Shown here one piece after another: positions 1 to 27,951 of a stretch of 64,000 bases of DNA. Within the stretch, counting starts at the first letter, position 1. Each line of letters opens with the position of its first letter. Position numbers and translations under genes: made by a program. Below the pieces are notes generated by a model. That model had not been told where the DNA came from. It saw only the letters and a program-made list of their open reading frames with translations, and made no database searches. Source of the stretch: Paracoccus aminovorans (GTDB taxonomy: Bacteria; Pseudomonadota; Alphaproteobacteria; Rhodobacterales; Rhodobacteraceae); contig NZ_LN832559.1 in NCBI RefSeq assembly GCF_900005615.1, forward strand, positions 2,681,001 through 2,745,000. The letters run 5' to 3'.

Positions 1-3000
1 TCGGCCAGCAGCGAGGGCGGCAGCGCCTCGCCGCCGACCATGACGCATTTCAGCCCCGCCATCGCCGCCGCCACCTGCGGGTCCGAAACCAGGATCCGCG
101 CCATGCTGGGCGTGCATTGCAGATGCGTCACCTTCCAGCGCCGGATCTGCGCCGCGATCGAGAAATCGCCGTCCGCGGGCGCGGCGCCATGCGGGTTCAC
201 CTCGGCCCGCAGCCGCGCCAGCATCGGGAAGCCGGCCATCACCTGCTCGGGGGCGATGCCATAGTCGATCAGGCAGGCGATCTCGCCCACGCCGATGGTC
301 TTCAGCTGTTCGACCCGCGCGATGGCGTCGTCCATCGAACCGAACAGGCCCGAATCCTCGAAATAGCGCAGGAAGGCGAATTCCAGGATGCCGTCCAGCT
401 CTTCCTCGGAGAGCGAGCCCAGGTCGATGGCCATGGGGTTGGTCATGCCCGCAGGCTTGCGGAAGGCGGGGAAATCCCAGGCATATTGCTTGACCAGCGC
501 CGCCGCGCTGCGCAGGTAGTTCTTCATCGGCTCGCGGGCGATCTCGCGCGCGGTCTCGCGGTCCTCGGCCAGGCAGGTGTGCAGCATCAGCGTGACGGTG
601 AAATGCGCCGGATCATGCCCGACCGAGCGCAGCGCCGCGTGATAATCCTTGATCCGCGCCGCCACCGTTTCGATGCTCTGGCCCAGCAAATGGGTCAGCA
701 CGTTCATGCCCAGCCGTCCGGCCTCGACCCAGGTTTCCGGGTTGCCGGCCACGGTCAGCCACAGCGGCAGTTCCTTCTGCACCGGGCGCGGCTGGGTCAC
801 GACGCCGAAGCTGCCGCCGCCGGCGCGCGGGAAATCCACGCTTTCGCCGCGCCACAGCCGGCGCAGCTGTTCGATGCCTTCGATCATCGCCGCCTTGTTG
901 TTCGGCGGCGCGTTTTCCGGGCGCAGCACGAAATCGTCCGGCTGCCAGCCCGAGGCGATGGCTAGGCCCGCCCGCCCCGAGGTCAGGTTGTCGATCACAG
1001 CCCATTCCTCGGCCACCCGGGCCGGATGGTGCAGCGGCAGCACGCAGCTGCCGGCGCGGACCGAGATGTTTCTGGTCACCGCCGCCACCGCCGCGCCCGA
1101 CACCGCCGGGTTCGGATAGGGGCCGCCGAAGGCGTGGAAATGCCGCTCGGGCGTATAGACGGCGACGAAGCCGTTCTGGTCGGCAAAACGCGCCCCCTCC
1201 AGCAGCAGTTGGTATTTCTTCGGCCCCGGCCCGTCGTCGTTGCCCCAATAGAACAGGCTGAAGTCCATGCCGCCGGCAACCTCGCGCCGCGGCTGCGCCG
1301 GGGCCGAGGACACCGCCAGCCGCGATTCCTCGCCCGCGATCACCAGCTTGAGCCCGCGCGCCAGCGACCAGAAGATCTCCAGCACCGAAATGTCGAAGCT
1401 GAGGCTGGTCACCGCCAGCCAGGCATCGCCCTCGGCATGCGGGATCACCGCATCCATGCCGGCGAAGAAATTGGCGACGTTGCGATGCTCGACCATCACC
1501 CCCTTGGGCAGGCCGGTCGAGCCCGAGGTATAGATCAGATAGGCCAGGTGCTGCGGCCCGACCGTGCCGACCGGCGCCGCCACCATGCCATGCGGCAGGT
1601 CCGAGGGAATGGTCACCACCTGCGCGCCATGCGCCGGCAGCCTGTCGGCCAGACCGTCCTGGACCAGCACCACGCGCGCGCCGGAATCCTGGAGGTAAAG
1701 CTCGACCCGCTCGGCGGGATAATCGGGGTCCAGCGGCACATAGGCGCCCCCCGCCTTCCAGATCGCCAGCGCGCCGATCACCAGTTCGGGCGAGCGTTTC
1801 GCGAACAGGCCCACCGGCTGATCGGGACCGACACCCATCGCCACCAGCTTTTCGGCCAGCGCATTGGCGGCGCGGTCCAGCTGGCCGCGGGTCAGGCCGT
1901 GGTCCTCGAAGGCAAGGGCCGATGCATCCGGGTTCTCGGCGGCCTTTTCCGCGATCAGCTCGTGGATGCAGGCCAGCCGCACCTCGGCCTGCGTGGCGTT
2001 GCGGGCAACCAGCAGATCCTCGCGCTCGGCCGCGTCCATCAGGGGAATGTCGCGCAGCGCGGTCGTGCCGGGCAGCGCGAGGCCCGCGTCCAGCGCCCGG
2101 GCCAACCGCTGCGCCTGCGCCGGCGTGATGCGGGCCGGGTCGTGCTCCAACCAGGCCCCGTCCGAGGCCAGGGCGACGGTCAGCGCCGCGCCGCGAACCG
2201 AGGCGTGCGCATCCAGGCTGATCGCCAGGTCAGGCGTCGCCATGTCGCGCAGTTCGGGCGCGCGGGCCAGCAGATCGGCCATCAAGAAGCCGCGGCCGGC
2301 CTGATCGGCCATCTGTCCCGCCATGGCGGCGCCCAATGCGGCAAGCGTCTGGTCGCCGCGGGTCTGAACCGCCAGCGGCTGCCAATCGGCGACGATCCCC
2401 TGCGCTTCGGGCTGGTCCGCGGGACGCAGCGCCAGGTCGAAGGCGCCCTGCCCGCCCAGCCGCGCCAGCAGCGCCGCCGCCAGCGCGATCCGCTCGGGTG
2501 CCGCGCCGGGCAGCAACTGCACGCGCTGGCGCGCAGCCGAGTCCTCGCCCGGCAGCACCGCCGGGTTCATCTTTGCCAGCCGCTTGCGCCACCAGCCGTC
2601 CTGTTTCGCCGCCCGCGCCGCCAGTTCGGTCAGCCGCGCGCGCTCATCGTCCGGCAGCGTCGGGATCACCGCACCCAGCGGCGGCAATTCGCCGCGAAAG
2701 ACCAGCCGGATCGCGGCATCGCCGGCGGCAATGGTCGCGATCTCGCCGTGATGCGCCAGCACGGTGCCGGGCACGATGCCGGCGCCGACCGGCTCGGTCC
2801 CGGCCGAAGCCGCGACCGCCAGCACCCGGCCATCGTCCAGCCGGATCTTGGCCTCGGTCAGCGGGTTCCAGTAACCGCCGTGGTCGAGCCCGCGCACCAG
2901 GGCGCAGATGCGCCCGGCGGGCTGGGAAAAGTCGATGATGCCGGCGGCCTCGGGGCGCTTGTCCTTGCCGACATAGCTGCGCTGCGACAGGTCCTGCTGC

Positions 3001-3527
3001 ACGCGCTGCGGCCCGGCACCCTCCAGCTGCGCCACCACATCGGCAAAGCTTTCCGCGCCGCGGGCGAAGCAGCGGGCGTTCAGGGTCAGCGCGGTATCGT
3101 CCGGGCGCAGCTCGAACAGCCGCTGGGCCAGGATGTCGCCCTCGTCCACGCCGCCCTCGATCATGTGCCAGGTGATGCCGTGCTGGGGCTCGCCGCCGAC
3201 GATCGCCCAGACCGGGGCGTTCAGCCCCGCCAGCCTGGGCAGCGGGCCGTCGTGGAAGTTGATCGCGCCAAGGTGGCCGCGCGCCAGCATCCCGGGGCGC
3301 AGGATCGACAGGTTGGCGACGCTGAACAGCCAGTCGGCCGCCGGGGCGTCCGCGGGCATCGGCGCGTCCTGATCCTCGACCGTCAGCCCGGCGCCGGTCG
3401 CCCAGTCGCGCAATTCGGGATTGTGCGTCACCACCGCGACGATGCGATGGCCGCGCGCCAGCAGCGTTTCGGCCGCATGGCGCGTCAGAGATTCGTTACC
3501 GACCAGAATCGCGGAAAATTGCGTCAT
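1..3527 (-). CDS. NRPS: formyltransferase + adenylation domain with embedded luciferase-like monooxygenase (3' truncated)
   Basis: The frame is open to the left window edge, so the C-terminus is missing. Residues 1-290 resemble Met-tRNA/ArnA-type formyltransferases, with the Asn-His pair in GAINFHDGPLPR (about residue 88) and the Asp in GGVDEGDIL (about 128). Residues 300-520 look like the remnant of a condensation domain; I see no HHxxxDG motif. The adenylation domain starts near 525 and carries YTSGSTGLPKGV (about 666). It is interrupted after FDISVLEIF, and residues 750-1112 form a flavin-dependent luciferase-like monooxygenase (starts GGMDFSLFYWG) of the MupA/Atu3671 type. The adenylation fold resumes at VTHLQCTPSMARIL. 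The start ATG overlaps the stop of the upstream glycosyltransferase by 4 bp and has AAAAGGG as ribosome site. A peptidyl carrier domain should lie off the edge. A formylated, oxidised aminoacyl unit is inferred; the substrate is unknown. Confidence 0.9.
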   Translation of the reverse strand, partial: MTQFSAILVGNESLTRHAAETLLARGHRIVAVVTHNPELRDWATGAGLTVEDQDAPMPADAPAADWLFSVANLSILRPGMLARGHLGAINFHDGPLPRLAGLNAPVWAIVGGEPQHGITWHMIEGGVDEGDILAQRLFELRPDDTALTLNARCFARGAESFADVVAQLEGAGPQRVQQDLSQRSYVGKDKRPEAAGIIDFSQPAGRICALVRGLDHGGYWNPLTEAKIRLDDGRVLAVAASAGTEPVGAGIVPGTVLAHHGEIATIAAGDAAIRLVFRGELPPLGAVIPTLPDDERARLTELAARAAKQDGWWRKRLAKMNPAVLPGEDSAARQRVQLLPGAAPERIALAAALLARLGGQGAFDLALRPADQPEAQGIVADWQPLAVQTRGDQTLAALGAAMAGQMADQAGRGFLMADLLARAPELRDMATPDLAISLDAHASVRGAALTVALASDGAWLEHDPARITPAQAQRLARALDAGLALPGTTALRDIPLMDAAEREDLLVARNATQAEVRLACIHELIAEKAAENPDASALAFEDHGLTRGQLDRAANALAEKLVAMGVGPDQPVGLFAKRSPELVIGALAIWKAGGAYVPLDPDYPAERVELYLQDSGARVVLVQDGLADRLPAHGAQVVTIPSDLPHGMVAAPVGTVGPQHLAYLIYTSGSTGLPKGVMVEHRNVANFFAGMDAVIPHAEGDAWLAVTSLSFDISVLEIFWSLARGLKLVIAGEESRLAVSSAPAQPRREVAGGMDFSLFYWGNDDGPGPKKYQLLLEGARFADQNGFVAVYTPERHFHAFGGPYPNPAVSGAAVAAVTRNISVRAGSCVLPLHHPARVAEEWAVIDNLTSGRAGLAIASGWQPDDFVLRPENAPPNNKAAMIEGIEQLRRLWRGESVDFPRAGGGSFGVVTQPRPVQKELPLWLTVAGNPETWVEAGRLGMNVLTHLLGQSIETVAARIKDYHAALRSVGHDPAHFTVTLMLHTCLAEDRETAREIAREPMKNYLRSAAALVKQYAWDFPAFRKPAGMTNPMAIDLGSLSEEELDGILEFAFLRYFEDSGLFGSMDDAIARVEQLKTIGVGEIACLIDYGIAPEQVMAGFPMLARLRAEVNPHGAAPADGDFSIAAQIRRWKVTHLQCTPSMARILVSDPQVAAAMAGLKCVMVGGEALPPSLLA

Positions 3528-4498
3528 GGCTTACCCTTTTCAACATGCACGGGCTTTGGCTGCGAACGGAGCGCGTGGCGCGTCAGATGGGACAGGTGCC
3601 CCGGCGCCCCATCGGGCGCGCGCCTCGACAAAAGGCAGCGCAGGCGGAACACCCCCGCGCCCCCCAGATGCGCGACCGTGGCCCAAAGCGCGCCCAGACG
3701 CCCATGATGTTTCTCGAAATAGCGGCGGCGAGAGTCGTACCAGTAATCCGGCACCCGCTTCCATTCCTTCATGCCGGTGCTGACCGAACCGATATGCAGC
3801 ACCAGGCTTTCGACGACGTAATGGGTCTGCCAGCCCGCCAGCGCGGCACGGCGGCACAGGTCGGTTTCCTCATAATAGAGGAAGAAGCCCTCGTCGAAGA
3901 GACCGATTCGATCCAGCACATCCATGCGGATCATCATCGACGCCCCCGCCGACCAGTCCACGCGACCGGATGTCTCGGGCTGCGGCAGCGCCACCATCTT
4001 GCGGCGCAGCAGCCGGGTGATCGGGCCGGTGCGGCTTTCCGATTCGAATTCGCCCGCGGCGCTGGGAAAGCGAAAGGCGGTGCTGTGCGGCTCGTCGTCG
4101 GTGCCGCGCAGCCGCGAGCAGGCGATTCCCGCCTGCGGATGCGCGGCCAGGTAGTCGACCAGCGCCCGGATCGCGCCCGGCTGCGGGATCGCGTCCGAAT
4201 TCAGCAGATAGACCAGATCGGCCCGGCGCCCGTCCGGCAGGCCCTGGCGGATGCCGTGGTTGTTGCCGGCGCCATAGCCGCCGTTCCAGCCCGATTGCAC
4301 CACGGCGACCCGGTCGGCGGGCCAGCCCCGGGCCTGCACCCCGGCCTGCATGGTCTCGAACGAGCCGTCGCCGGAATCGTTGTCGACGATGGTCAAGCCG
4401 CCATCCAGGCCCTGCAATTCGCGCAGCGCCGCCTCGGCCGCCTGCAGGGACATCTCGGGCGTGCGCCAGTTCAGCACCACCACATGAACGCTGGGCAT
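3524..4498 (-). CDS. Family 2 glycosyltransferase (rhamnosyltransferase-like)
   Basis: A 324-residue cytoplasmic GT-A glycosyltransferase. It opens with VVVLNWRTPEMS, the usual first strand of the GT2 fold. LTIVDNDSGDGS follows at about residue 38, then the DxD-like LLNSDA (about 100), GASMMIR and FFLYYEETDLCRRA (about 200), the acceptor-side signature of rhamnosyltransferase-like GT2 enzymes. The family transfers a nucleotide-activated sugar to a lipid or sugar acceptor. The gene sits between a PKS (2-bp gap) and an NRPS (4-bp ATGA overlap), so the three are almost certainly co-translated. That suggests it either glycosylates the assembly-line product or builds the glycan to which it is joined; both are inference. 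The ATG at 4498 was chosen over a longer upstream frame that runs through the PKS gene. Confidence 0.88.
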   Translation of the reverse strand: MPSVHVVVLNWRTPEMSLQAAEAALRELQGLDGGLTIVDNDSGDGSFETMQAGVQARGWPADRVAVVQSGWNGGYGAGNNHGIRQGLPDGRRADLVYLLNSDAIPQPGAIRALVDYLAAHPQAGIACSRLRGTDDEPHSTAFRFPSAAGEFESESRTGPITRLLRRKMVALPQPETSGRVDWSAGASMMIRMDVLDRIGLFDEGFFLYYEETDLCRRAALAGWQTHYVVESLVLHIGSVSTGMKEWKRVPDYWYDSRRRYFEKHHGRLGALWATVAHLGGAGVFRLRCLLSRRAPDGAPGHLSHLTRHALRSQPKPVHVEKGKP

Positions 4499-4500
4499 GG

Positions 4501-7500
4501 TCACTCTGCCGCCTTTGCCTGGGCCGGGGCGTCGCCGTCGGCCTGCCGCAGGATCTCGCGCAGGACCGAGGCCATGCGGCGCACGTTCGGTTCCAGCACC
4601 ATCGAGTCGTGGTCGCCCGGCACCTCGATCACCCGCAGCTGCGGCATCCAGGGCGTCCAGCCGTTGTCTTCGACCACGTAGTCGCGGCCCGAGTTGATCC
4701 AGCGCCCGCCCGTCGCCTTCCAGCGCTTGTCCAGCGGCGGCCGGAACATGGCCACCGGCCCGTCCCAGACCGACAGCCGCATCTTGGGCAGCGAGGCCAG
4801 GAACGCAGCCTCGATGGCGAGGTCGTGGAAGGCGCCGCTGGCTTCGGTCGCGACCTCGGCCTCGACCGCCTTGGCCTTGCTGCGGCGCCGAAACTCGAAG
4901 GCGACGCGGTCGCGCAGCCATTTCCAGACGAAGCCCGGACCGCCCTCGCGCAATTCGCCCAGGCGGATCGCCAGCCGGTCCTTGCGGCTGACCGGCTCGC
5001 GCAGCGGCAGCGGCGTGTCCAGCATGACCAGCATCGCCACCTCTTCGCCCGCCGCGCGCAACTGCCGCGCCATTTCGTAGGCGGTCAGCCCGCCGCCCGA
5101 GAAGCCGCCCAGAAGATAGGGGCCGTGCGGCTGCACCTGGCGGATTTCCTCGATATAGTCGCGGGCGGCCTCGGAGAAGTCCTCATGCGGCTGGTCGTCG
5201 CCCAGCAGCCCGCGCGCCTGCAGGCCGTAGAAACGGCGGTCCGGCCCGACCCGTTGCGCCAGCTGGCGCAGGTTCATGATATTGCCGAACATGCCGGCGA
5301 CGATGAAGAAGGGCGTGCCGGCGCCGCGCCCGCCCATGTCCACGACGAAGCGGAAGCGGGGTTTCTGCGATACCGGCAGCGCGGCGACATTGTCGGGCGA
5401 GACGATCTCGCGCGGGCCGGTGCGCTCCTCGACGAGCGCGGCAAGCTGGGCGATGGTCGGCGCCTCGAACAGGGTCGAGATCGGCAGGTCCACGCCGAAC
5501 GCCTTGCGGACCTGGCCGAACATGCGCACCGCGATCAGCGAATGGCCGCCCAGGTCGAAGAAGCTGTCGGCGGCGCCGACCTGGGCGATGCCCAGCAGGT
5601 CCGACCAGATCGCCGCCAGTTCGGCCTGGGTGCCGGGCGCCGGCTCGACGAAATCGCTGTCGAGGTCGGGACGCTCGAACCCGCCTTCGCTGGGCGCGGC
5701 ATCCTCGACCAGGCCGGCCTCGGCGATCAACGCGTCCAGATCCAGCGACGAGACATAGACCTGCGCCAGCCCGGTCGAGATCGCCCGGCTCAGCATCGCC
5801 GGACCGATGGCCGCGGGGATGCCCTGGCTGATGTTGTGCTGCAGGCGCCGCTCGGCCGGGGACAGGCTGCGCGCGGACTGGCCGCGCACCGGCTGGGCGG
5901 AAATCGCCGCGGCGAGCTTTCTCAGCGCAAAGCCTCGGATCTCGGCCACGACGGCACCGTCGGGCCCGGCCAGGGTGATGTCGAACTGCGCCATGCCCTG
6001 GGCGTCGCTGTTCTCGCCCGCGTTGCGGATGCGGCTGGTCAGCTGCGCCGGCAGGGGCGCGTAAAGCCGGATCGAGCGATAGCCCATGGGCACCCACAGG
6101 TTTTCCGGGGTCCAGCCCTGGATCAGCGGCATGGCCCAGCCGGTGGCAATGTCCAGCAGCGCCGGATGCGCCAGCCACGCGCCCGCCTCGCCGGCGAATT
6201 CCGGCGGCAGCGACAGTTCTGCCACGCCCTCGTCGCCCTGGATGCGGAAACGGCGCAGCACCTTCCAGCGCGGGCCGAAGGCCATCTGCCGTTCCTGGGC
6301 CGAGGCCAGGGCCGCGCCCTGCCCGTCCTGGTCCCAGGGACCCGAGACCGCCAGCGGCGCCGGCGCGGCTTCGTGCAGCCCGGCGACCAGCGCGGTCACG
6401 TTCGGATCGGCTTGCGGATCGTCGAGGATGTCGATGCGCATGGCGTCGCCCTCGGGCGTGACCCGGGTGGTCACCAGCGCCTTGTCGCCGACCAGCACCG
6501 GGCGGCGGAATTCCAGGTCGCGGATCACCAGCGGCAGCGACAGGCCGGATTCCAGCGCGGCCTCGGCCGCCAGCTCGATCCAGCCGGTGCCCGGCATCAG
6601 CGCCTGGCCGGATGCGGTCTTGTGGCCGCCGATGATCCAGTCCTCGATCCGCAGCGTGCTGCGGAATTCGCGCCCGCCCGGGACCGGCAGGCTTTCGTCC
6701 AGCAGCGGCCGGCCCTGCGGCGCGGCCACGACCGCGGCCGTGTCCAGCCCCATCGCCCGCGCGGCCATGCCGGCATCGGCCCAGACGCCCCAGTTCACCG
6801 CGACCACGCGACCCAGCGCCGGCGGCGCCGAACGCGCCACCGCGTTCAGATATTCGTTGGCGGCGACGTAATCCGCCTGCCCCGCCGGCGCGATCGCCGA
6901 CGAGGTCGAGGAGAACAGCACCGTCAGCCGGACGGGATCCTTGGCCAGCGCCTCGATCAGCGCCCGCGTGCCCAAGAGCTTGGGCGCCAGCACGTCCCAG
7001 GCGTCGTCGTCGGTCTTGGCGGCGATCAGGCTGTCGCGGATCACGCCGGCCGCGTGCAGCACCACGTCGAGGCTGCCGAAACGCGCCTTGGTCTCGGCGA
7101 CGGCATCCGCCATGTCCTCGGGCGAGGTCACGTCGGCGCGCAGCGCCAGCACCTCGGCCCCCAGGCCCTGCAACTGCCGGACCGCGGCCACGACCGCGGG
7201 CGAATCGACCCGGCCGCGCGTGGTCAGCGCCAGCTTGGCGCCGCCCCGCTGCGCCAGTTCGCGGGCGATGGCCTGGCCGATGCCGCCGAAGCCGCCGGTG
7301 ATCAGGCAGGTCGCACCCTGCGGAATGGCGGCCATGCCGTCCTCGGCCAGCGCCACCTTCTCAAGGCTTTGCTCGAAGCGGCGGCCGTCGCGCCAGGCGG
7401 CGATGGCCGCGCCCGAGGGCGCCAGCGCCTCTTCGAGCAGATTGGCGGCCAGCGCGTCGAGACCGCCCTTGGCCGGCAGGCGGATGTCCACCAGCCGGGC

Positions 7501-10500
7501 GCGGATATTCGGCATTTCATGCGGCATCACCCGGATCGGCCCGGCTGCCGCGGCCTTTTCCGGCACCGGCGCGGGTTCGTCGGCGACCCGCAGCGCGTCG
7601 TTGCAAACGGCGATCAGTTCCAGCCTGGCCTCGGGCAGTTCGGCGCCGATGGCCTGCGCCAGATGCAGAAGACCGAAAAAGCCGCGTTCCAGCTGGCTGT
7701 TGAGCAGGCTGGAGCCGGGACGGAACTTCGCCCCCTGGGTCACCGACCACAGATGCAGGATGCGGTCCGGCACCAGGTCCTGCGCCGCCAGCGCGGCCAG
7801 CAGCATCTCGTAACCCTCGCGGTCGGATTCGACCGGCAGGGTGAACCGGCCCTGCCCCTTGTCGGCAAACGTGTCGCCGACCTGCACCACGGCGACGCGC
7901 TGGCCGCGGGTCCGCAGGCCCTCGGTCACCTGCTCGGCCAGGCCCAGATCGTCGGCAAAGATCAGCCAGCTCTGCGCCAGGGGCGCCACCGGCCCCTGCG
8001 GCCCGATCTCGATATTCGGCGAGGCCAGCTTCCAGGCCGGGCGCCAGCCCCATTCGGCAAGCTCCTCGATGCGGGCCAGTTCCTCGGCGGTCTCGGCCGC
8101 GACGCTGGCGGAACGCTCGATGAAATAGCGCTTGCGCTGGAAGGCATAGCCGGGCAGCGACAGGCGCCGGCGCCGGGCATCGCCCCAGATCTGGTCCCAG
8201 TCGATCACGCCGCCGCAGGCCCAGAACCGGGCCAGCGCCGCGATGAAATAGCTGTCGTCCGCGGTCGCATGATCGCGGTGGCGCAGGGTCGAGACGACCT
8301 GATGCGCCGCCACCGCCGGATTGGCCTTGGCCATGGCCTGCATGGCCCGGCCCGGCCCGACCTCCAGGAACACCCGGCCCGGCACCTGCGCCAGATGCGC
8401 TATGCCGTCGGCAAAGCGCACGGTGCCGCGCAGATGCGCGACCCAATAGTCCGGGCTGGTCGCCTCGGCATCGGTCAGCGCCTGGCCGGTGCGGTTCGAG
8501 ATGATCGGGACCTGCGGCGGGTTCAACCGGATCGAGGCCAGATAGGCCCGGAACTCGGCCAGGATCCCCTCCAGCATGCGCGAATGCGCGGCGATGGAGA
8601 TGGCGATGCGCTGGCATTCGATCTCGCGCGCCGCCATTTTCGCGGCGAAGGCGTCCAGCTTGGCGTCGGGGCCCGAGACGACCGACATCGACGGGCCGTT
8701 CACCGCCGCCAGGTCCAGGCCCAACTCCTCCAGTTCGGCGGCGAAATCCTGCGGCTCCAGCGGCACCGACAGCATCCCGCCCGCCGGAACGCGGTCGAAC
8801 AGCAGCCCGCGCAGCCGCACCAGGCCGATGCAATCCTCGAAGGACATCACCCCGGCGATGCAGGCGGCGGTGTTTTCGCCCATGGAATGGCCGATCAGGG
8901 CCGAGGGCGAGACGCCCCAGCTGATCCACAGCTGCGCCAGCGCATATTCCGTAATCATCAGCAGCGGCAGTTGCAGCGAGGGTTGCAGCAGCCGCCGGTC
9001 CGCCTCGGCCTCGGCGCCCGGCTCGGGCAGCCACAGCGCGCGCAGGTCGGTGCCATGCGCCTGCGCCATGTGGTCGAGGCCGCGGTCCATCCAGTCGCGG
9101 AACACCGGCTCGGTCTCGTAAAGCCCGCGGGCCATGCCGGCATATTGCGCGCCGCCGCCGGGCAGCATGAACACCGCCTCGGCCGGGTCGCCGACCGGCT
9201 GGTGGTCGAAGACCAGGCGCGGGTCGGGATCGGCCAGCAGCGCCGCCGCCTCGGCCGCATCGCGGGCGACCAGTACCCGGCGGCGGTCGAACTGCCGCCG
9301 GCCCTGCGTCAGGGTGAAGGACAGGTCGGCCATGTCCACGCCGGGGTTGGCGCCCAGCCAGGCCGACAGCGCCGCGCTATTGGCGTCCAGCGCCGCCTTG
9401 CTGCGGCCCGAGACGGCGACGATCTGGAACGGCCAGTCGGATTCGCCCGAAGGCTGCGCCAGCGGCGGTTCCTGCAGGATCACATGCGCATTGGTGCCGC
9501 CGACGCCCAGCGAGTTCACCCCGGCGCGGCGCGGCCCGGCGATGGGCCAGCCGCCCAAGGCATAGTTGACGCGAAACGGCCCGCCCTCGAAGTCGATGGC
9601 CGGGTTCGGCGCTTCATAGCCCAGGCTGGGCGGGATCTGGCCGTGATGCACCGCCAGGGCCGACTTGATCAGCCCCGCGCTGCCCGCCGCCGTATCCAGA
9701 TGGCCGATATTGGTCTTGACCGAGCCGATATGGCAGGGCCCCTGCCGCGTGCCGTCCGAGACCCGCTCATAGGCCTGGTTCAGCGCCGCGACCTCGATCG
9801 GGTCGCCCAGCGCCGTGCCGGTGCCGTGGCATTCGACATAGCCGATGCTGTCGGAACTGACCCCGGCCATCACCAGCGCCTCGGAAATCGCCTGGGCCTG
9901 GCCCTCGACGCTGGGGGCGAGATAGCCCGCCTTGGCGGCGCCGTCGTTGTTGATGGCCGAGCCCTTGATGATCGCCCAGACATGGTCGCCATCGGCAATC
10001 GCGTCCGCCGCCCGCCGCAGCGCCAGCACCGCCGCGCCGCTGCCGAAGACGGTGCCCTGCGCGCGGTGGTCGAAGGCGTGGCAATGGCCGTCCGGCGACA
10101 GGATCTCGTTTTCCTTGTAGAGATAGCCGACGCCATGCGGCAGCTCGATGGTGACGCCGCCGGCCAGCGCCATGTCGCATTCGCCCGAATTCAGCGACTG
10201 GCAGGCCATGTGGACCGCGACCAGCGAGGTCGAGCAGGCCGTCTGCACGTTGACCGACGGCCCCTTCAGGTCGAAGACATGGCTGACGCGGGTCGACAGG
10301 AAATCCTTGTCGTTGCCGGTATGGCGCAACAGGAAATGCCCCACGCCATCGACCAGATCGCGGTTCGAGCACACGTTCCAGTAGTAATAGCTGCCCGCGC
10401 CGCAGCCGGCCCAGACGCCGATATTGCCGGCGAAACGCTCGGGCACATGGGCGGCATCCTCCAGCGCGTGCCAGCAGGTCTCAAGGAACTTGCGGTGCTG

Positions 10501-10785
10501 CGGGTCCATGATCGCTGCTTCCTTGGGTGAGAGCCCAAAGAATTCGGCGTCGAATTCGTCGAACTGGCCCAGGATCGCGGCCGAGGGCACGTAGTTCGGA
10601 TCGGCCATCCGCGCCCGCGACTCGCCCCGCGCCAGCAGGTCCGCCTGGGGGATGCGCTGGATGGATTCCACGCCCTTGCACAGGTTGTCCCAGTATTCCG
10701 CGACGCCTGCCGCCCCAGGAAGCTGCGCGGCCATGCCGACGATGGCGATGTCACTGTCCTCAACGACGATCTTGTCGAAGGCCAT
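4501..10785 (-). CDS. Type I polyketide synthase, KS-AT-KR-DH-ACP-TE
   Basis: A 2094-residue single-module PKS. The ketosynthase (1-445) has its Cys in TACSTS (about 180) and histidines in HGTGT and NIGH. The acyltransferase (535-830) has GHSMGE (Ser about 632); the specificity position reads IAAH, neither the malonyl HAFH nor the methylmalonyl YASH motif. The ketoreductase (1155-1340) has GGFGGIG and the Ser/Tyr region ending DYVAANEYLNA. The dehydratase (about 1375-1640) has GGHKTASGQALMPGTG and HPALLDIATG. The carrier domain has DLGGHSL (Ser about 1744) and the thioesterase GGFSGGG (about 1892). The KR-before-DH order is unusual for modular PKSs but known in PUFA synthases. A terminal TE implies that this module releases the product. 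The start follows AAGGGG. It lies 102 bp downstream of the polymerase-like gene and 2 bp before the glycosyltransferase. Confidence 0.95.
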   Translation of the reverse strand: MAFDKIVVEDSDIAIVGMAAQLPGAAGVAEYWDNLCKGVESIQRIPQADLLARGESRARMADPNYVPSAAILGQFDEFDAEFFGLSPKEAAIMDPQHRKFLETCWHALEDAAHVPERFAGNIGVWAGCGAGSYYYWNVCSNRDLVDGVGHFLLRHTGNDKDFLSTRVSHVFDLKGPSVNVQTACSTSLVAVHMACQSLNSGECDMALAGGVTIELPHGVGYLYKENEILSPDGHCHAFDHRAQGTVFGSGAAVLALRRAADAIADGDHVWAIIKGSAINNDGAAKAGYLAPSVEGQAQAISEALVMAGVSSDSIGYVECHGTGTALGDPIEVAALNQAYERVSDGTRQGPCHIGSVKTNIGHLDTAAGSAGLIKSALAVHHGQIPPSLGYEAPNPAIDFEGGPFRVNYALGGWPIAGPRRAGVNSLGVGGTNAHVILQEPPLAQPSGESDWPFQIVAVSGRSKAALDANSAALSAWLGANPGVDMADLSFTLTQGRRQFDRRRVLVARDAAEAAALLADPDPRLVFDHQPVGDPAEAVFMLPGGGAQYAGMARGLYETEPVFRDWMDRGLDHMAQAHGTDLRALWLPEPGAEAEADRRLLQPSLQLPLLMITEYALAQLWISWGVSPSALIGHSMGENTAACIAGVMSFEDCIGLVRLRGLLFDRVPAGGMLSVPLEPQDFAAELEELGLDLAAVNGPSMSVVSGPDAKLDAFAAKMAAREIECQRIAISIAAHSRMLEGILAEFRAYLASIRLNPPQVPIISNRTGQALTDAEATSPDYWVAHLRGTVRFADGIAHLAQVPGRVFLEVGPGRAMQAMAKANPAVAAHQVVSTLRHRDHATADDSYFIAALARFWACGGVIDWDQIWGDARRRRLSLPGYAFQRKRYFIERSASVAAETAEELARIEELAEWGWRPAWKLASPNIEIGPQGPVAPLAQSWLIFADDLGLAEQVTEGLRTRGQRVAVVQVGDTFADKGQGRFTLPVESDREGYEMLLAALAAQDLVPDRILHLWSVTQGAKFRPGSSLLNSQLERGFFGLLHLAQAIGAELPEARLELIAVCNDALRVADEPAPVPEKAAAAGPIRVMPHEMPNIRARLVDIRLPAKGGLDALAANLLEEALAPSGAAIAAWRDGRRFEQSLEKVALAEDGMAAIPQGATCLITGGFGGIGQAIARELAQRGGAKLALTTRGRVDSPAVVAAVRQLQGLGAEVLALRADVTSPEDMADAVAETKARFGSLDVVLHAAGVIRDSLIAAKTDDDAWDVLAPKLLGTRALIEALAKDPVRLTVLFSSTSSAIAPAGQADYVAANEYLNAVARSAPPALGRVVAVNWGVWADAGMAARAMGLDTAAVVAAPQGRPLLDESLPVPGGREFRSTLRIEDWIIGGHKTASGQALMPGTGWIELAAEAALESGLSLPLVIRDLEFRRPVLVGDKALVTTRVTPEGDAMRIDILDDPQADPNVTALVAGLHEAAPAPLAVSGPWDQDGQGAALASAQERQMAFGPRWKVLRRFRIQGDEGVAELSLPPEFAGEAGAWLAHPALLDIATGWAMPLIQGWTPENLWVPMGYRSIRLYAPLPAQLTSRIRNAGENSDAQGMAQFDITLAGPDGAVVAEIRGFALRKLAAAISAQPVRGQSARSLSPAERRLQHNISQGIPAAIGPAMLSRAISTGLAQVYVSSLDLDALIAEAGLVEDAAPSEGGFERPDLDSDFVEPAPGTQAELAAIWSDLLGIAQVGAADSFFDLGGHSLIAVRMFGQVRKAFGVDLPISTLFEAPTIAQLAALVEERTGPREIVSPDNVAALPVSQKPRFRFVVDMGGRGAGTPFFIVAGMFGNIMNLRQLAQRVGPDRRFYGLQARGLLGDDQPHEDFSEAARDYIEEIRQVQPHGPYLLGGFSGGGLTAYEMARQLRAAGEEVAMLVMLDTPLPLREPVSRKDRLAIRLGELREGGPGFVWKWLRDRVAFEFRRRSKAKAVEAEVATEASGAFHDLAIEAAFLASLPKMRLSVWDGPVAMFRPPLDKRWKATGGRWINSGRDYVVEDNGWTPWMPQLRVIEVPGDHDSMVLEPNVRRMASVLREILRQADGDAPAQAKAAE

Positions 10786-10887
10786 GGGCGATGCCCCTTT
10801 TCAACTCGTGGAACCCCCTTGCGGAGGCAAATATCTTAACAACTGGCAGGCGTGTTCGGCATAGCCAATTCGGGGCCGCGCACCAAC

Positions 10888-12312
10888 CTATAAAACCGTC
10901 GGAATGCCTGCCTTTTTAGGCAGAATCCGCCGTTCGGCCGGCAGATCGGCAGCCTCTGCGGCACCCTGCCGCAGCCTGTGCGCATTGCCCAGAAGCGCCC
11001 CCGCCGTCAGCCAGGTCAGCGGCGTGATGGTGGCATTGGGAATCAGGTCCAGCAGGTTCATTGCCAGCATCAGCGACAGGGTGCCCAGGAACACCAGTTC
11101 CTTCTCGCGGCCGGGTTGCCGGCCGCGGGGGATGGCGCGCAGCAGCGCATAGATCGGCGTCAGCAGCAGCAGGAACTGCGCCAGATAGCCGAAGATGCCG
11201 CGCGCCCCCAGCCAGATCACCCAGACGCCGTCGGGGACCGAGGCCAGCCGGCCGCTATAGGGGTCGTAGAACAGCGACCGCCCCCAATCGCCCCAGCCGA
11301 AGAACGGCCGCTCCATGGCGCGCCGCAGCAGCACCTCCTCGTTCATCAGGCGAAAGGCGAGCGAACCGCCGCGGTCGGGCGAGATCGACATGGCCAGGTC
11401 GACGATGCCCTGCAGCGGCATCCACGGGGTGGTGCGCAAGATCGGATAGGAAAAGGCCAGCGTGCCCACGATCACCGCCACCAGCACCATCCCCCGCGGC
11501 CGCGCCAGCAGGACCAGCGGCGCCGCCATGATCGCCTGCAGCAGCGCCCCGGCGGATTTGCACAGAAACAGGATGCAGCCCAGATAGACCGCGATCAGCA
11601 GGTTGCGCCGCGTGAAGTCGTTGCGGGCCACGGCGATGGCCGACAGAAACGCCGTCATCGTCATCAGCGCCACCCACAGCGGGTGCTCCAGGAACACGAT
11701 GGGCCTGAAGCCGCCATAGCGCATGGTCTGGATGAAATCGTGCTGGAAATAGCCATAGACCCAGACGTTCATCTGCGGGCTCATCCGCAGCTCGATCAGC
11801 ATCGGGACGGTATAGCACAGCACGCCAAGCACCAGGGCGCGGATCCAGAGTTCGGCCCCGCGCGCGTTCCACAACAGCTTGTAGCCCATCAGGAAAGGCA
11901 GCAGCAGCAGGAATTGCTGGATCAGGTTGGATATGCCGTGGGTGATCGCCATGGGTGGGCGGTAGTTGACGCCGTCGACCAGCCCGTCGGGATTGGTCAG
12001 CGCCGTCAGCATCGGCGAAACGAGGTTCATCCCCAGCAGCAGCACAACCCAGCGGCCGAAGGGCGGCGAGGCCGGCTCTTGCGGGGCGCGGTCCTTGGTC
12101 ACGAACCAGACCATGACCCCGGCCGCGATGGCCGGGATGATGTGCTTGTTCAGGCTGGGAAAGGCCGGCAGGTCGATCTCGACCAGCTGCGGCAGAATCA
12201 GGTAGCCGGCGAAGATCGACCAGATCATCGCCGTCGCGCGGTCCTTGCGCGAAAACAGGATGCCGACCACCACCGGCCAGATCAGCAGCATCGTCAGGGC
12301 CAATAAGGGCAT
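10888..12312 (-). CDS. O-antigen ligase/polymerase-like polytopic membrane protein
   Basis: About 474 residues with roughly ten hydrophobic segments, beginning directly with one (MPLLALTMLLIWPVVVG) and carrying a larger hydrophilic stretch after the middle (about 330-400, including FGWGDWGRSLFYDPYSG). This is the layout of Wzy polymerases and WaaL-type O-antigen ligases, which work at the periplasmic face on undecaprenyl-linked glycans. I chose the ATG at 12312 because GGAGG precedes it by six bases. An in-frame ATG at 12372 (MSFPGQSML) is possible but has a poorer ribosome site. The gene lies upstream of the PKS on the same strand, which suggests that a glycan polymerisation or transfer step accompanies the polyketide. 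The exact family is inferred from topology, not from a diagnostic motif. Confidence 0.7.
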   Translation of the reverse strand: MPLLALTMLLIWPVVVGILFSRKDRATAMIWSIFAGYLILPQLVEIDLPAFPSLNKHIIPAIAAGVMVWFVTKDRAPQEPASPPFGRWVVLLLGMNLVSPMLTALTNPDGLVDGVNYRPPMAITHGISNLIQQFLLLLPFLMGYKLLWNARGAELWIRALVLGVLCYTVPMLIELRMSPQMNVWVYGYFQHDFIQTMRYGGFRPIVFLEHPLWVALMTMTAFLSAIAVARNDFTRRNLLIAVYLGCILFLCKSAGALLQAIMAAPLVLLARPRGMVLVAVIVGTLAFSYPILRTTPWMPLQGIVDLAMSISPDRGGSLAFRLMNEEVLLRRAMERPFFGWGDWGRSLFYDPYSGRLASVPDGVWVIWLGARGIFGYLAQFLLLLTPIYALLRAIPRGRQPGREKELVFLGTLSLMLAMNLLDLIPNATITPLTWLTAGALLGNAHRLRQGAAEAADLPAERRILPKKAGIPTVL

Positions 12313-12433
12313 GGCCTGCCTCCACCAGTCGCGCGGCGGGCGCCGCAACATGCTTTGGCCGGGGAAGGACATTGCAATCCCCGCGCCCGCGCCACATCCT
12401 GCCGCAAACTCCGGCCGGAACCCGAGGCGCATC
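12313..12433. promoter_or_regulatory. Divergent promoter region of the polymerase-like gene and wecG-like gene
   Basis: These 121 bp separate two divergently transcribed polysaccharide-type genes, so promoters for both must lie here or inside the 5' ends. I could not identify convincing -35/-10 pairs. The region contains the alternative upstream start (12372) of the leftward gene. Confidence 0.35.
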
Positions 12434-13198
12434 ATGCATTTCAGTTTTCCCGACGGCAATGCCGTGCGGATCAATTGTAAGGATTCAGCCGCGCTTCTGG
12501 CGGCGGTGCGGCAGCGGCTGCGCGACGGACAGGGCTTCGCCATCGCCACGATCAACGTCGATCACTTGCAACGGCTGGGCGAAGACGCCCGGTTCCGCAC
12601 CGCCTATGCCGCGCATGACCTGGTCTGCGCCGACGGCAATCCCATCGTCTGGCTGTCGCGGATCGCGGGGCGGCCGGTGGCGCTGGCCCCCGGCTCGGAC
12701 CTGGTGCTGCCGCTGGCGGCCGAGGCGGCGCAGGCCGGCCTGCCGCTGGCCCTGATCGGCAGCAGCGACGAATCGCTGGCGCTGGCGGCCGCCAGCATGA
12801 CCCGCGCCGTGCCCGGACTGCGGGTGGCCCTGACCCATGCCCCCGGCTTTCCCTTCGACCCGATGGGCGACGAGGCGGACCGGATCATCGCGCGCATCCG
12901 CGAATCGGGCGCGCGGCTGTGCTTCCTGGCCCTGGGCGCCCCCCGGCAAGAGCTTTTCGCCATCCGCGCCCGCGACGCGCTGGGCGATGTCGGCTTCGCC
13001 TCGATCGGCGCCGGGCTCGACTTCCTGTCCGGCCACCAGCGCCGGGCGCCGGCATTGATGCGCAAGGCCAAGATGGAATGGGCCTGGCGGATGCTGTCGA
13101 ATCCGCGCCGGCTGTTCCTGCGCTATGCCAAGGGCTTCACCATCCTGCCCGGCCATGTCCGCCGGGCCGCGGCCATCCGGCGCGCGGGGAAGGGCTGA
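12434..13198 (+). CDS. WecG/TagA/CpsF family glycosyltransferase
   Basis: A 254-residue protein of the GT26 family, which adds ManNAc(A), glucose or related sugars to lipid-linked primers. Recognisable blocks are FAIATINVDHLQ near residue 38, ADGNPIVWLSRI, LIGSSDESLALAA, the central LCFLALGAPRQELF, and GFASIGAGLDFLSG with RRAPALMRKAKMEWAWRM towards the C-terminus. There is no signal peptide; family members act at the cytoplasmic membrane surface. It is divergent from the polymerase-like gene and converges on the RTX gene that ends at 13237. Together with the GT2 and the polymerase-like protein it indicates synthesis of a polyprenyl-linked glycan here. Confidence 0.88.
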   Translation: MHFSFPDGNAVRINCKDSAALLAAVRQRLRDGQGFAIATINVDHLQRLGEDARFRTAYAAHDLVCADGNPIVWLSRIAGRPVALAPGSDLVLPLAAEAAQAGLPLALIGSSDESLALAAASMTRAVPGLRVALTHAPGFPFDPMGDEADRIIARIRESGARLCFLALGAPRQELFAIRARDALGDVGFASIGAGLDFLSGHQRRAPALMRKAKMEWAWRMLSNPRRLFLRYAKGFTILPGHVRRAAAIRRAGKG

Positions 13199-13236: not shown

Positions 13237-14877
13237 TCAGTCGAAGATCTGGGCCAGCACATGCGGCAGCTCGGCGTGGTCGCCGCCGGGGTGGGCCGCC
13301 ATCTCGCGATAGGTCCCGACCAGATCCGAGATCATGGCCGAAATGCCGCCGTGGTGCTGGTCTGGATGCGGGACCGGCTCGGCCGCCGGGAAGCGCCAGC
13401 TGAAATGATCCGCCGCGAGGGTGCGGGCGCCGCCGTCGTCCGCCTCGGCCGCCGTCGCACTCGCCGCCGCCGGGTCCGCCTGCGCGGTCATCACCTTGGC
13501 GCGGGCGACCTCGGCCGCCTGCGCCGAACTGGCGGGAATTCCCAGCTTGATCAGCATGGCGCGGGTCAGGCTTGCGGCCGAGACCCCTTCCAGAAGGATG
13601 GATTCGCCCTTGGGAAAGCTCAGCAGGGCGCCGTTGCCGCGCGCGGTCACCGTCACGTCGTTCACGTCGACCAGATGGCCGCCGCGGTCGTGCAGCGTGG
13701 CAACGGACAGACGGTCGCTGGCGATGCCGCCGCCATCGTGGATCTGGAAGCCCCGGATCGTATCCGCGCCGGCGCCGTCGCGGATGATCAGCACATCGCG
13801 CTGCGAATCCGGGATGACGCGGCCGGAATGCACGTCGTCGACCATCGAGATCAGGTCGTTGCCACGGCCGCCGTCGATGGTGTCGGCGCCCTGCCCACCT
13901 TCGAGCGTGTCGCGGCCCGCGCTGCCGGTCAGCCGGTCGTCGCCCCAGCGGGTGTTGAAGAAGATGCCCTTGCCGTCCGCGCCGATGGTGGCATTGGCGG
14001 CGCTGACCGTATCCCGGCCCTCATGGGTCCAGAACTGCTCGAACTCGCTGAAGACCAGGGTGCCGTTCGCCTGCGGAAAGCTGGCCCGGCCGGAACTGTT
14101 GGTGGTAAAGACCACATGGGCGCCGGCGCTGTTCTCGCCGCTGCCCGTGGCCCAGACGTTCAGCAGATCGTGACCGGCGCCGCCGACCAGCGTGTCGCGG
14201 CCGATGTTGTAGATCGGGCCCATGCTGCCGTTGTTGCCCCAGCGCACGTTGTCGTCGCCGGCGCCGGCATGGCCGTAGTCGTTGCCCTGCGACGGCATCA
14301 GCAAGTCGGTGCCGCCGCCGCCGAACACCCGGTCGTTGCCGGGCCCCGGGTCGATCACGTCGCTGCCGTTGGTGCCGCGGATGGTGTCGTTGCCAGCCCC
14401 CGAGTTCACCGTCAGCCCGTGGACGGGCGTAAAGCTGGAGCCGGCGCCGCGCGCGGCGTTCAGCAGGCCGCGGCTGCCGTCGATGGAATCGTTGCCGGCG
14501 CCGGTCTGCAACCGCTCGAAGCCGCTGAAGTTCAGCCGGTTGCCGAAGGCGTCCAGCACAAAACCGTTCTCGCTGCTGGTGAAGGTGACGCGAAAGCCGC
14601 GCGCCCCGTACAGGTGCAGCCTGTCGCCGCCGGCGAGCGAGCCGTAGATGTCGGCCTCATAGTTCTCGCCGGCGCTGCCGCCGATATAGGTGTCGACATT
14701 GCCGCGGGAATTCGGGTCCTGGTTCCAGATCAGAACGTCGGCGCCCGGCCCGCCATGCGCATAATCGCTGCCTCGGCCGGGATTGATGGTGTCGCGGCCT
14801 TCCAGGCCCCGGATCGTGTCGCGCCCCACCGTTCCGTTCAAACGGTCGCTGCCGGTCGTTCCGTTGATCACGGCCAT
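13237..14877 (-). CDS. RTX calcium-binding secreted protein, Hint-less paralogue
   Basis: A 546-residue acidic protein with no N-terminal signal peptide and many GGxGxDxL-type nonapeptides (GGPGADVLIW, TGAGNDSIDG, GGQGADTIDGGRGND). Such repeats bind calcium outside the cell and usually mark type I secretion substrates. Blocks occur near 1-60, 130-210, 225-260 and 320-355, separated by beta-rich spacers. It is collinear with the neighbouring gene at 15054-17024 up to the sequence KLGIP (about residue 445), where that protein starts its Hint domain. Here a 100-residue Ala-rich tail follows, ending ELPHVLAQIFD. The start has GGGGAA upstream. The function is unknown; an extracellular matrix or surface role is possible. 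No secretion ATPase lies in the window. Confidence 0.9.
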   Translation of the reverse strand: MAVINGTTGSDRLNGTVGRDTIRGLEGRDTINPGRGSDYAHGGPGADVLIWNQDPNSRGNVDTYIGGSAGENYEADIYGSLAGGDRLHLYGARGFRVTFTSSENGFVLDAFGNRLNFSGFERLQTGAGNDSIDGSRGLLNAARGAGSSFTPVHGLTVNSGAGNDTIRGTNGSDVIDPGPGNDRVFGGGGTDLLMPSQGNDYGHAGAGDDNVRWGNNGSMGPIYNIGRDTLVGGAGHDLLNVWATGSGENSAGAHVVFTTNSSGRASFPQANGTLVFSEFEQFWTHEGRDTVSAANATIGADGKGIFFNTRWGDDRLTGSAGRDTLEGGQGADTIDGGRGNDLISMVDDVHSGRVIPDSQRDVLIIRDGAGADTIRGFQIHDGGGIASDRLSVATLHDRGGHLVDVNDVTVTARGNGALLSFPKGESILLEGVSAASLTRAMLIKLGIPASSAQAAEVARAKVMTAQADPAAASATAAEADDGGARTLAADHFSWRFPAAEPVPHPDQHHGGISAMISDLVGTYREMAAHPGGDHAELPHVLAQIFD

Positions 14878-24878: not shown

Positions 24879-26230
24879 ACCAGGCCCGTCTCGGACAGGA
24901 ACTCGTCGACCAGGTCCAGGATGCGCCGGGCCGCACGCTTGCCGACATGCACCCCCAGCAGCCCCTGCGACACAGGCGGAATGCGCGACAGCTGGGACAG
25001 GCCCGCAACATCGGCGAACACCGTGTCGTAGCGGCAGCGCGAGACATGCGCCTGGGGCAGGAAGTCGCCCCAGCGATGCTGCTGCGTCTGCCGGGTGCCG
25101 ATCTCGATCACCAGCGCGCCGGTCTTGGCATAGACCATATTGGCAAGGCCCGCGCCATGCGGCGCGATCAGGACGTCCGCGGCCTGCATCTGCGCGATCT
25201 GTTCGATGGGCGTCAGGTGCTCGAAGGCGACCTGGACAAAACCGCGCCCGGCCAAGGCCTGCAGCAGCGGCTCGGCGCCGGTGATGCCGCGGGCGCGGGC
25301 GGCGCCGCTTTCGTCCCGGCCCATCCAGACCAGCCGGGGCATGCGCCGGACCATCCCGGGCGGCACCTGCCGCAGCGCATGGTCGCGCAACGCGCGCAGG
25401 CTGCTGTCGTAAGAGGCCATCGCGACGTTCTTGCGATACAGCGGCTCGGACCGGATATGGTCCTGCCAGCGCGGATCGACGCCTTCCTGCTCGACGGCCT
25501 GGCGGATGCGCGGGTCCGCGACCTGATAGAGGTAATGGCGGTGGCTGTAATGCGCCCGCACCCGGTCATAGCCGGTCGAGGTGGCGACGATCTCGATCCG
25601 GGGGGCCAGCGTCGGAAACACCGCCTGGATGAAACCCATGACGAAGCCGCGCGCATTGTCCTGCGGCAGATGCAGGCGGATGGGCTGGTCGCTTTCGTCC
25701 CCGACGAAGGGGGCGAGGCAGCCCAGCGTCTCGGCGGTGAAATGATAGTAGTTGAACCCGTTCTTCAGCTCGATCGCCACCGGCAGGCCGCGGGCGCGGT
25801 TCTCCCAGACCGGCAGCGGCAATTCCGCGCCGTTGCGCGCCCGCCGAAAGGCCCAGTGCAGCCGGCTCTGCCGCCAGTCGGCGCGATTCTGCTGGTCGAA
25901 GCGGGTCCGCTGCCGGCCCCCGGCGGCGCCGTTCAGCCACAACCTGCCGTCGATGGCGGCCGCCCCCTTGGAGAACACCGCATTCTCCAGCACCACCGGG
26001 GCGCAGTTGATCTCCATCACCGTGGTCAGCAGCCGCTCCTGCTGGCGGTCGAGGGCATTCTGCTGGTTCGCCCGCAGGGCGTCGTCGTCGCTTTCGGCGA
26101 AAAGCCGGATCTCGGCGCCCGCGACGGGGCGCATGATCCAGTCCGGCGCCGGGCCAAGGTAAGAAATGCCGGGATGCAGCCCCGGCATGTGGAACAAGGT
26201 CATTGGCGGCCGCGTAAACTCGATCTGCAT
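24842..26230 (-). CDS. Glycosyltransferase family 61 (DUF563) protein
   Basis: About 462 residues. The C-terminal half has the GT61 core: [60 protein letters not shown] and [18 protein letters not shown]61 enzymes transfer sugars such as xylose or GlcNAc; bacterial members often sit in capsule or exopolysaccharide loci. The N-terminal 170 residues include a tract like [20 protein letters not shown], common in these proteins. The start at 26230 has GGAGAG six bases upstream; an ATG four codons earlier (26242) is possible. Its 3' end overlaps mutS by 37 bp in convergent orientation, so each gene constrains the other there. Confidence 0.85.
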
Positions 26231-27056: not shown

Positions 27057-27129
27057 CGCCCGACCGCTGGCTGTGGAAAACTGCGCCGCACATACGCCGG
27101 CGCGGCGGGTTTCGCAACGGCAAGGGCGG

Positions 27130-27942: not shown

Positions 27943-27951
27943 GCCGCCCCC

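Follow-up and report, generated by a model that had tools for sequence, protein, structure and literature searches.

The NRPS-PKS operon and its genomic setting

This analysis concerns a hybrid nonribosomal peptide synthetase (NRPS)-polyketide synthase (PKS) assembly line in Paracoccus aminovorans. The window, meaning the whole stretch of DNA analyzed, spans 64,000 nucleotides (G000:C1:2681001-2745000); genome coordinates equal 2681000 plus the window coordinate, and zero or negative values lie before its first base. Four adjoining genes encode a type I PKS, a GT2-family glycosyltransferase (GT2b), an NRPS, and a phosphopantetheinyl transferase (PPTase; PF17837 match) (Table 1). The PKS stop codon (TGA) is followed by CC and then by the GT2b ATG at position 4498, leaving a 2-bp gap; with the GTG start, GT2b instead overlaps the PKS stop. 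GT2b and the NRPS overlap by 4 bp (ATGA). The NRPS passes the left edge of the window, ends at coordinate -1131 after 1552 amino acids (aa) on the same contig, and overlaps the PPTase gene by 4 bp. The 2-bp gap and the two 4-bp overlaps indicate that PKS-GT2b-NRPS-PPTase is a tightly packed four-gene unit. No sigma-70 promoter was found in a scan between the Wzy-like gene and the PKS gene, and three terminator-like sites lie inside the Wzy-like gene against 1.2 expected, a count that proves little in this genus.

The unit lies among genes for exopolysaccharide (EPS) synthesis. To its left are a Wzx flippase (PF13440, 165.7 bits; cut-off, 23), a priming polyprenyl-phosphate sugar transferase (PF02397, 191.2 bits; cut-off, 27), a Wzz-like protein, a kinase-like ATPase (CbiA, 21.9 bits over a short match, below the cut-off of 25.4), and two glycosyltransferases. 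A malic enzyme gene follows Wzx on this side, with NAD-metabolism genes beyond it; the one isochorismatase-family protein adjoins NAPRTase and is taken to be a nicotinamidase. To the right are the Wzy-like protein, WecG, two RTX proteins, an ABC transporter, and MutS. The gene content and the unrelated genes on both flanks indicate that the locus is bounded and is an EPS locus. WecG is the sole PF03808 match in the genome, and the only strong PF13440 match is the one here, the second being weak and partial. The sole OPX (PF02563) match lies at C1:1531368, 1.1 Mb away and so outside the locus. Known Wzx/Wzy EPS loci have the same priming transferase, glycosyltransferases, WecG, Wzx, Wzy-like and Wzz-like proteins, and kinase-like ATPase; the present locus differs from them in its built-in NRPS-PKS operon with its own PPTase and in the remote OPX gene.

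These data agree with an initial annotation of the window regarding the PKS/glycosyltransferase/NRPS spacing, the C-terminal thioesterase (TE) domain of the PKS, and the divergent orientation of the WecG/TagA/CpsF enzyme. That annotation also placed an O-antigen-ligase/polymerase-like membrane protein upstream on the same strand. The position is correct; the assignment has a weak Pfam match, 8 hydrophobic segments in a hydropathy scan, and recurring relatives.

Table 1. Features of the locus in window coordinates
Feature	Coordinates	Strand	Basis or remark
Wzx flippase PF13440	-9275..-7917	-	
Wzz-like protein	-7917..-6430	-	
CbiA/ParA-like ATPase (kinase-like)	-6380..-5643	-	
GT2 glycosyltransferase	-5354..-4527	+	
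Priming transferase PF02397	-3892..-3317	+	
GT4 glycosyltransferase	-2937..-1732	+	
NRPS loading module, N-terminal 1175 of 1552 residues in window	1..3527	-	Pfam/NCBIfam, structure/fold, residue checks
GT2-family glycosyltransferase (GT2b)	3524..4504	-	GTG start, alternative ATG at 4498; domain matches, tree
TTGAAAAGGG ahead of NRPS start, within GT2b 3' end	3534..3543	-	Ribosome-binding-site-like
Type I PKS, KS-AT-KR-DH-ACP-TE, 2094 aa	4501..10785	-	Domain matches, catalytic residues
TTGAAAAGGG ahead of PKS start	10795..10804	-	Ribosome-binding-site-like position; not kept by relatives
Wzy/O-antigen-ligase-like polytopic membrane protein	10888..12312	-	Weak Pfam match, hydropathy
WecG/TagA/CpsF (GT26) glycosyltransferase, divergent	12434..13198	+	PF03808 match

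The NRPS is a loading module

The NRPS consists of a formyltransferase (F) domain (residues 1 to ~290), the C-lobe of a condensation (C) domain (~290 to 500), an adenylation (A) domain interrupted by an LLM monooxygenase, and a peptidyl carrier protein (PCP); position 1 of the window falls within the A domain, whose end, like the PCP, is encoded farther left. The NRPS of the initial annotation is thus present, truncated by the window edge, and is a loading module of the formyltransferase/half-C/A(LLM)/PCP type rather than an ordinary module. The LLM domain (TIGR04020, residues 756 to 1107, 464.6 bits) is inserted between FDIS near residue 711 and YGPTE near 1189, which we take to be motifs A4 and A5. 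The catalytic Asn-His-Asp of the F domain is present, and these residues are kept in 106, 106, and 107 of 109 aligned rows. The A-domain code is DILQMGMIWK, and DILQxGM(I/V)W is kept in every one of the 109 rows.

A complete C domain is missing. The fold is that of a half-C domain, and the HHxxxD motif occurs in 2 of the 109 rows. The Pfam condensation domain was matched weakly in 1 of 30 members (E 0.043) and not at all in the window's own NRPS. The C-lobe was seen both by profile (McyB, E 5.9e-9, last third only) and by fold. When the whole 520-residue model was compared, no C-domain chain was among the best 50 matches listed, because formyltransferases occupy those matches. LgrA chains head the list of solved relatives. 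As judged from its sequence, this is an NRPS without a functional condensation domain.

Formyl-glycine loading modules feeding a PKS have been proposed for conglobatin and phthoxazolin. In the available parts of these reports, CongA and PtxE carry F, A, and PCP in one protein, with a glycine-specific A domain feeding a PKS, the same arrangement as here (PMC4504003, PMC5764310). OzmO (oxazolomycin) and the F-A-PCP protein LgrA (linear gramicidin) likewise combine the three domains. Unlike these four proteins, the present NRPS has an LLM-interrupted A domain and a C-lobe between F and A, its partner is a single KS-AT-KR-DH-ACP-TE protein, and its setting is an EPS locus. A second precedent concerns the oxygenase. 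According to the available part of one report, the a4-a5 oxygenase of myxothiazol and melithiazol is said to hydroxylate the glycine alpha carbon, after which the carbinolamide breaks; in solanimycin B the alpha-hydroxyglycine is retained and the oxygenase lies at a8-a9 (PMC10204066). By these descriptions, the myxothiazol and melithiazol oxygenases resemble the present one in being inserted into a glycine-code A domain between motifs A4 and A5, but cleavage there releases a C-terminal amide, whereas here the domain belongs to a first module with a formyltransferase.

Proposed product and its route to the polysaccharide

The catalytic residues of the PKS are kept throughout KS-AT-KR-DH-ACP-TE. 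The AT motif is IAAHS, and the DH His and Asp are each present in 102 of 103 aligned rows. Taken together, the region is probably an EPS locus of the Wzx/Wzy type in which two dedicated proteins, the NRPS and the PKS, form a line producing a small acyl group destined for the repeat unit. The likeliest such group would be a formyl-glycine-ketide.

Gene order, domain content, catalytic residues, and conservation are observed; the chemistry that follows is our inference. The PPTase would prime the carriers of both the NRPS and the PKS. The A domain would load glycine, the F domain would formylate it, and the LLM domain may hydroxylate its alpha carbon. The KS would accept this starter, one malonyl unit would be added, and KR and DH would reduce and dehydrate the chain to approximately 4-formamido(-4-hydroxy)but-2-enoyl-ACP. 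If the carbinolamide breaks, a glyoxylyl-derived acid may form instead. Both candidate products are suggested by the formyl-glycine loading and A-domain oxygenase precedents. GT2b would add a sugar to the lipid-linked repeat unit, and the TE or a transferase would move the acid onto a sugar of that unit. Wzx would then flip the unit and Wzy would polymerize it for export. Placement of the acid on the sugar is the weakest step of this mechanism, and transfer by the TE is a guess. No solved structural relative of GT2b was found at E 0.001, so neither its donor nor its acceptor is predicted. Defense-system models gave no match for GT2b or for the adjoining RTX protein.

A related reading is that the polymer is a true glycan-ketide hybrid, with the formyl-glycine-ketide in every repeat and perhaps in the backbone. 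In that case GT2b would glycosylate the hydroxyl of the ketide, the PKS TE would acylate the next sugar, and Wzx/Wzy would handle the mixed unit. We regard this as doubtful.

Surface polysaccharides govern bacterial sticking, biofilms, and encounters with phages and hosts. Assembly lines are usually taken to produce free antibiotics or siderophores, and a line within EPS loci is easily mistaken for such a cluster. If the acyl-group reading is correct, it describes a new route to tailor a polysaccharide in many Rhodobacterales species, and a common class of orphan PKS-NRPS clusters in that order would be reassigned as polysaccharide genes.

Conservation of the operon within EPS loci

A species-genome scan with an alignment of 16 homologues gave at least 594 matching stretches (stretches, not genomes), and a relative is encoded in at least 530 of them. 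The 80 best loci were retained, L039, L053, and L097 among them; they were picked by two NRPS motifs and by rank, and they say nothing of loci lacking those motifs. Their titles point to Paracoccus, Gemmobacter, Tabrizicola, Cypionkella, Roseovarius, Shimia, Leisingera, Ruegeria, Salipiger, and other genera, plus three from Hydrogenophaga. Gene order was counted from six-frame hidden Markov model matches, with a low PKS threshold (60 bits) to allow for PKS genes truncated in several contigs. The order PKS, GT2b, NRPS on one strand was found in all 80 loci, and in 65 of the 78 that extend far enough a PPTase gene lies directly beside the NRPS gene. Locus L041 of Paracoccus denitrificans DSM 413 likewise shows this order. 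Among the 62 loci with full flanks, 58 have a PPTase, 46 WecG, 42 Wzz, 36 the ATPase, and 24 the priming transferase. At least two of six EPS roles are present in 59 of these 62; the remaining three encode a WecG relative (L052), a nucleotide-sugar 4,6-dehydratase (L102), or a mannose-1-phosphate guanylyltransferase-type gene (L106).

An evenly drawn phylum sample of 397 genomes is subject to less selection bias. It contained 21 strong NRPS matches: the genome itself, 12 further genomes from the same family, and 8 from elsewhere in the phylum. All 12 sampled family genomes have PKS, GT2b, and NRPS in that order with EPS genes. The initial annotation had read the assembly line and the lipid-linked glycan genes as one arrangement rather than as a simple siderophore cluster and had proposed comparing gene order in relatives; the flanking EPS gene set and the conservation of the combination in 80/80 and 12/12 loci support this well. 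It had also named homologous clusters without the glycosyltransferase and polymerase genes as evidence to the contrary. On this point the outcome is mixed: none of the 92 loci lacks GT2b, but in four loci of other families (G202, G087, G312, and G436) none was found near the line, and G010 and G011 have related EPS loci that lack the NRPS/PKS.

Outside the family the layout varies. The PKS and NRPS genes are divergent in G276 and G405, inside an EPS locus, and in G202, near a priming transferase, a WecG relative, and a Poly_export protein. The NRPS precedes the PKS in G436, beside Wzz, Wzx, and a BBP2 porin, and in G087, where a sugar dehydrogenase and a DegT aminotransferase are encoded at some distance. 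Two genomes, G340 and G299, match from the A domain onward only, without the formyltransferase, and G340 has a related PKS adjoining. The NRPS-PKS pair stays in EPS loci of other families (G276, G405, G202, and G436) with other layouts. The collinear NRPS-then-PKS order of G312, G087, and G436 supports a loading module that acts first and a PKS that acts second.

Distribution within the genus

Among 37 genomes of the genus, some of them incomplete, the NRPS is present in 15 (in pieces in G001 and G030). A GT2b orthologue (at least 52% identity) was found in 15/15 NRPS-positive and 0/22 NRPS-negative genomes, other matches not exceeding 39%. Wzx and Wzy matches were found in 15/15 and 6/22, respectively. 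Fisher p values were 1e-10 for GT2b and 6e-6 for Wzx/Wzy, uncorrected for relatedness. The Wzx match lies on another contig in G001, G022 (where it is weak, 33%), and G027, and the Wzy match does so in G001, G009, G025, and G027.

Five of the six NRPS-negative genomes with Wzx/Wzy were inspected. G010 and G011 have related EPS loci without the NRPS-PKS line, and the line is absent from the shorter stretches of G013, G018, and G021. The GT2b-like proteins found in G010 and G011, two in all, fall outside the NRPS-positive clade (100/100), on a long branch that drew a long-branch warning. In the Wzy and Wzx trees, the proteins of the five NRPS-negative loci clustered but were not cleanly apart (2 and 3 changes, respectively), and the Wzx reading covers part of the tree. 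The line thus appears to be an optional module equipped with a glycosyltransferase of its own. Its optional presence in the genus fits a decoration better than a universal anchor, and congeneric species that have a related EPS locus yet lack the line are natural controls.

Weighing the interpretation

Several points count against an acyl group made for the repeat unit. The Wzy-like protein (PF04932, 27.0 bits; cut-off, 31.7) and the Wzz-like protein (PF02706, 25.4 bits over a short match; cut-off, 25.5) score below threshold. Wzx and Wzy were found in only 39 and 38 of the 62 full-flank loci. The initial annotation had suggested looking left of position 1 for carrier, export, and nucleotide-sugar genes; PPTase, flippase, Wzz-like, priming, and glycosyltransferase genes are there, but no sugar-nucleotide gene was recognized in the window's own locus or just to its left. 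In G276 and G405 the GT2b relative lies ~17 kb from the line, and no GT2b was found near it in G202, G087, G312, or G436. On the chemical side, the glycine specificity of DILQxGM(I/V)W is presumed, and membership of the myxothiazol oxygenase in the LLM family is an assumption only. The DH motif is one residue longer between His and Gly than HxxxGxxxxP, which we take to be the usual form. A motif with the usual spacing was matched in 2 of 103 rows, since the family has this extra residue.

It is unlikely that the line makes a free secreted small molecule (a signal, toxin, or surfactant) and that its presence in EPS loci is incidental, perhaps a result of a shared role in surface life or of joint movement. 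The TE-ended line is of ordinary architecture, and EPS loci without it exist (G010 and G011). G312 (L139/L140) has the same F-A(LLM)-PCP start, but its PKS continues into C-A-PCP-TE, and the neighboring genes include TRAP/MFS transporters and a histidine kinase. No EPS gene was recognized in those surroundings, and it is evident from this relative that the line can be used for a different product. A Paracoccus survey files PKS-NRPS hybrids as secondary-metabolite clusters; it gives PKS-NRPS-HSR hybrids, possibly including the present locus, for 60% of the strains it compared, and its main text yielded no occurrence of the word polysaccharide (PMC8273931). Against a free molecule, the same glycosyltransferase stands mid-operon in 80/80 and 12/12 loci amid differing EPS gene orders, and no dedicated exporter, regulator, or resistance gene was recognized among the scanned neighbors.

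Quite unlikely is a lipid-like anchor, cap, or primer of the polysaccharide in place of a repeat-unit decoration. RkpA-type synthases have been proposed to make such lipid anchors for rhizobial capsules, and here too a PKS and a PPTase lie inside a capsule/EPS-type locus, where the TE could transfer the product onto a terminal sugar. A single module with a polar glycine starter, however, would give a short acid and not a lipid unless it works iteratively. An ordinary priming transferase (PF02397) is present, and related EPS loci manage without the line.

Carrier-protein chemistry inside polysaccharide loci is known. The RkpA PKS of rhizobial K-antigen loci and tetronate-ACP transfer in Vibrio cholerae O1 both make carrier-bound acyl units inside such loci, as proposed here. 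To our knowledge, and going by their descriptions, neither involves glycine, formyl, or monooxygenase chemistry. Among the titles and abstract openings listed by searches of open-access full texts, none described an NRPS-PKS line inside Wzx/Wzy loci, which is weak evidence of novelty. A T1PKS/NRPS hybrid is mentioned in a paper on Tritonibacter (PMC11225332), and a palmerolide paper bears little on the present locus (PMC8739492). The present line may be without prior description.

A siderophore or metallophore cluster beside glycan genes is very improbable: the TIGR04020 LLM domains are named after MupA/Atu3671 and the Atu3671 cluster has a siderophore role, but no TonB receptor or other siderophore-uptake gene was recognized among 30 neighbor proteins scanned (smaller open reading frames lying outside the scan), the conserved partners are glycan genes, and another NRPS at C1:402391 could fill that role. 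This second NRPS (G000:C1:402391-403530), a possible siderophore synthetase, shows 42% identity over the A-PCP part.

The repeated sequence ahead of the PKS and NRPS

The exact sequence TTGAAAAGGG occurs twice in 64 kb, against 0.02 expected. It lies 6 bases ahead of the NRPS ATG and 9 bases ahead of the PKS ATG, the Shine-Dalgarno position. Exact copies precede the NRPS in 10 of 20 loci and the PKS in 1 of 20, the window's own. A wider count of the region around the open-frame start, which would miss starts far inside the frame, gave 12/91 for the NRPS and 1/91 for the PKS. A shared regulatory element was rejected on the basis of the ribosome-binding distance, the location of the NRPS copy within the GT2b coding sequence, and the rarity of the PKS copy in both counts. 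The initial annotation was right that one sequence precedes both genes; as a conserved link between them it did not hold up.

Other observations

Two proteins with RTX calcium-binding repeats (window 13237-14877 and 15054-17024, both minus strand) adjoin the EPS locus. RTX and Hint-domain proteins flank EPS loci on both sides, further examples being L010:3170-4324 (+) and L009:13064-14194 (+). A family of ~230 to 325 aa with an SGNH-hydrolase-like motif, read by eye, occurs in 29 of 77 related loci (L069:17419-18396, L032, L034, L036, L102:17478-18416, which has a DUF4886 match, and others) and is possibly a polysaccharide esterase or acyltransferase. Proteins with an NEVWN-type glycosidase-like motif, also read by eye, occur in 26 of the 77 (L071:372-2135, L062, L066, and L060). 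The one scanned had no Pfam match, and that of L062 is fused to an SGNH-like part.

Outside the EPS locus proper, a GT61-family glycosyltransferase (window 24842-26230, minus strand) lies beside mutS. Proteasome-like, transglutaminase-like, and Alpha-E proteins follow in a row (window 26331-28911, minus strand); the first of these is presumably of the Anbu type, whose operon we take to be recurrent but poorly understood.

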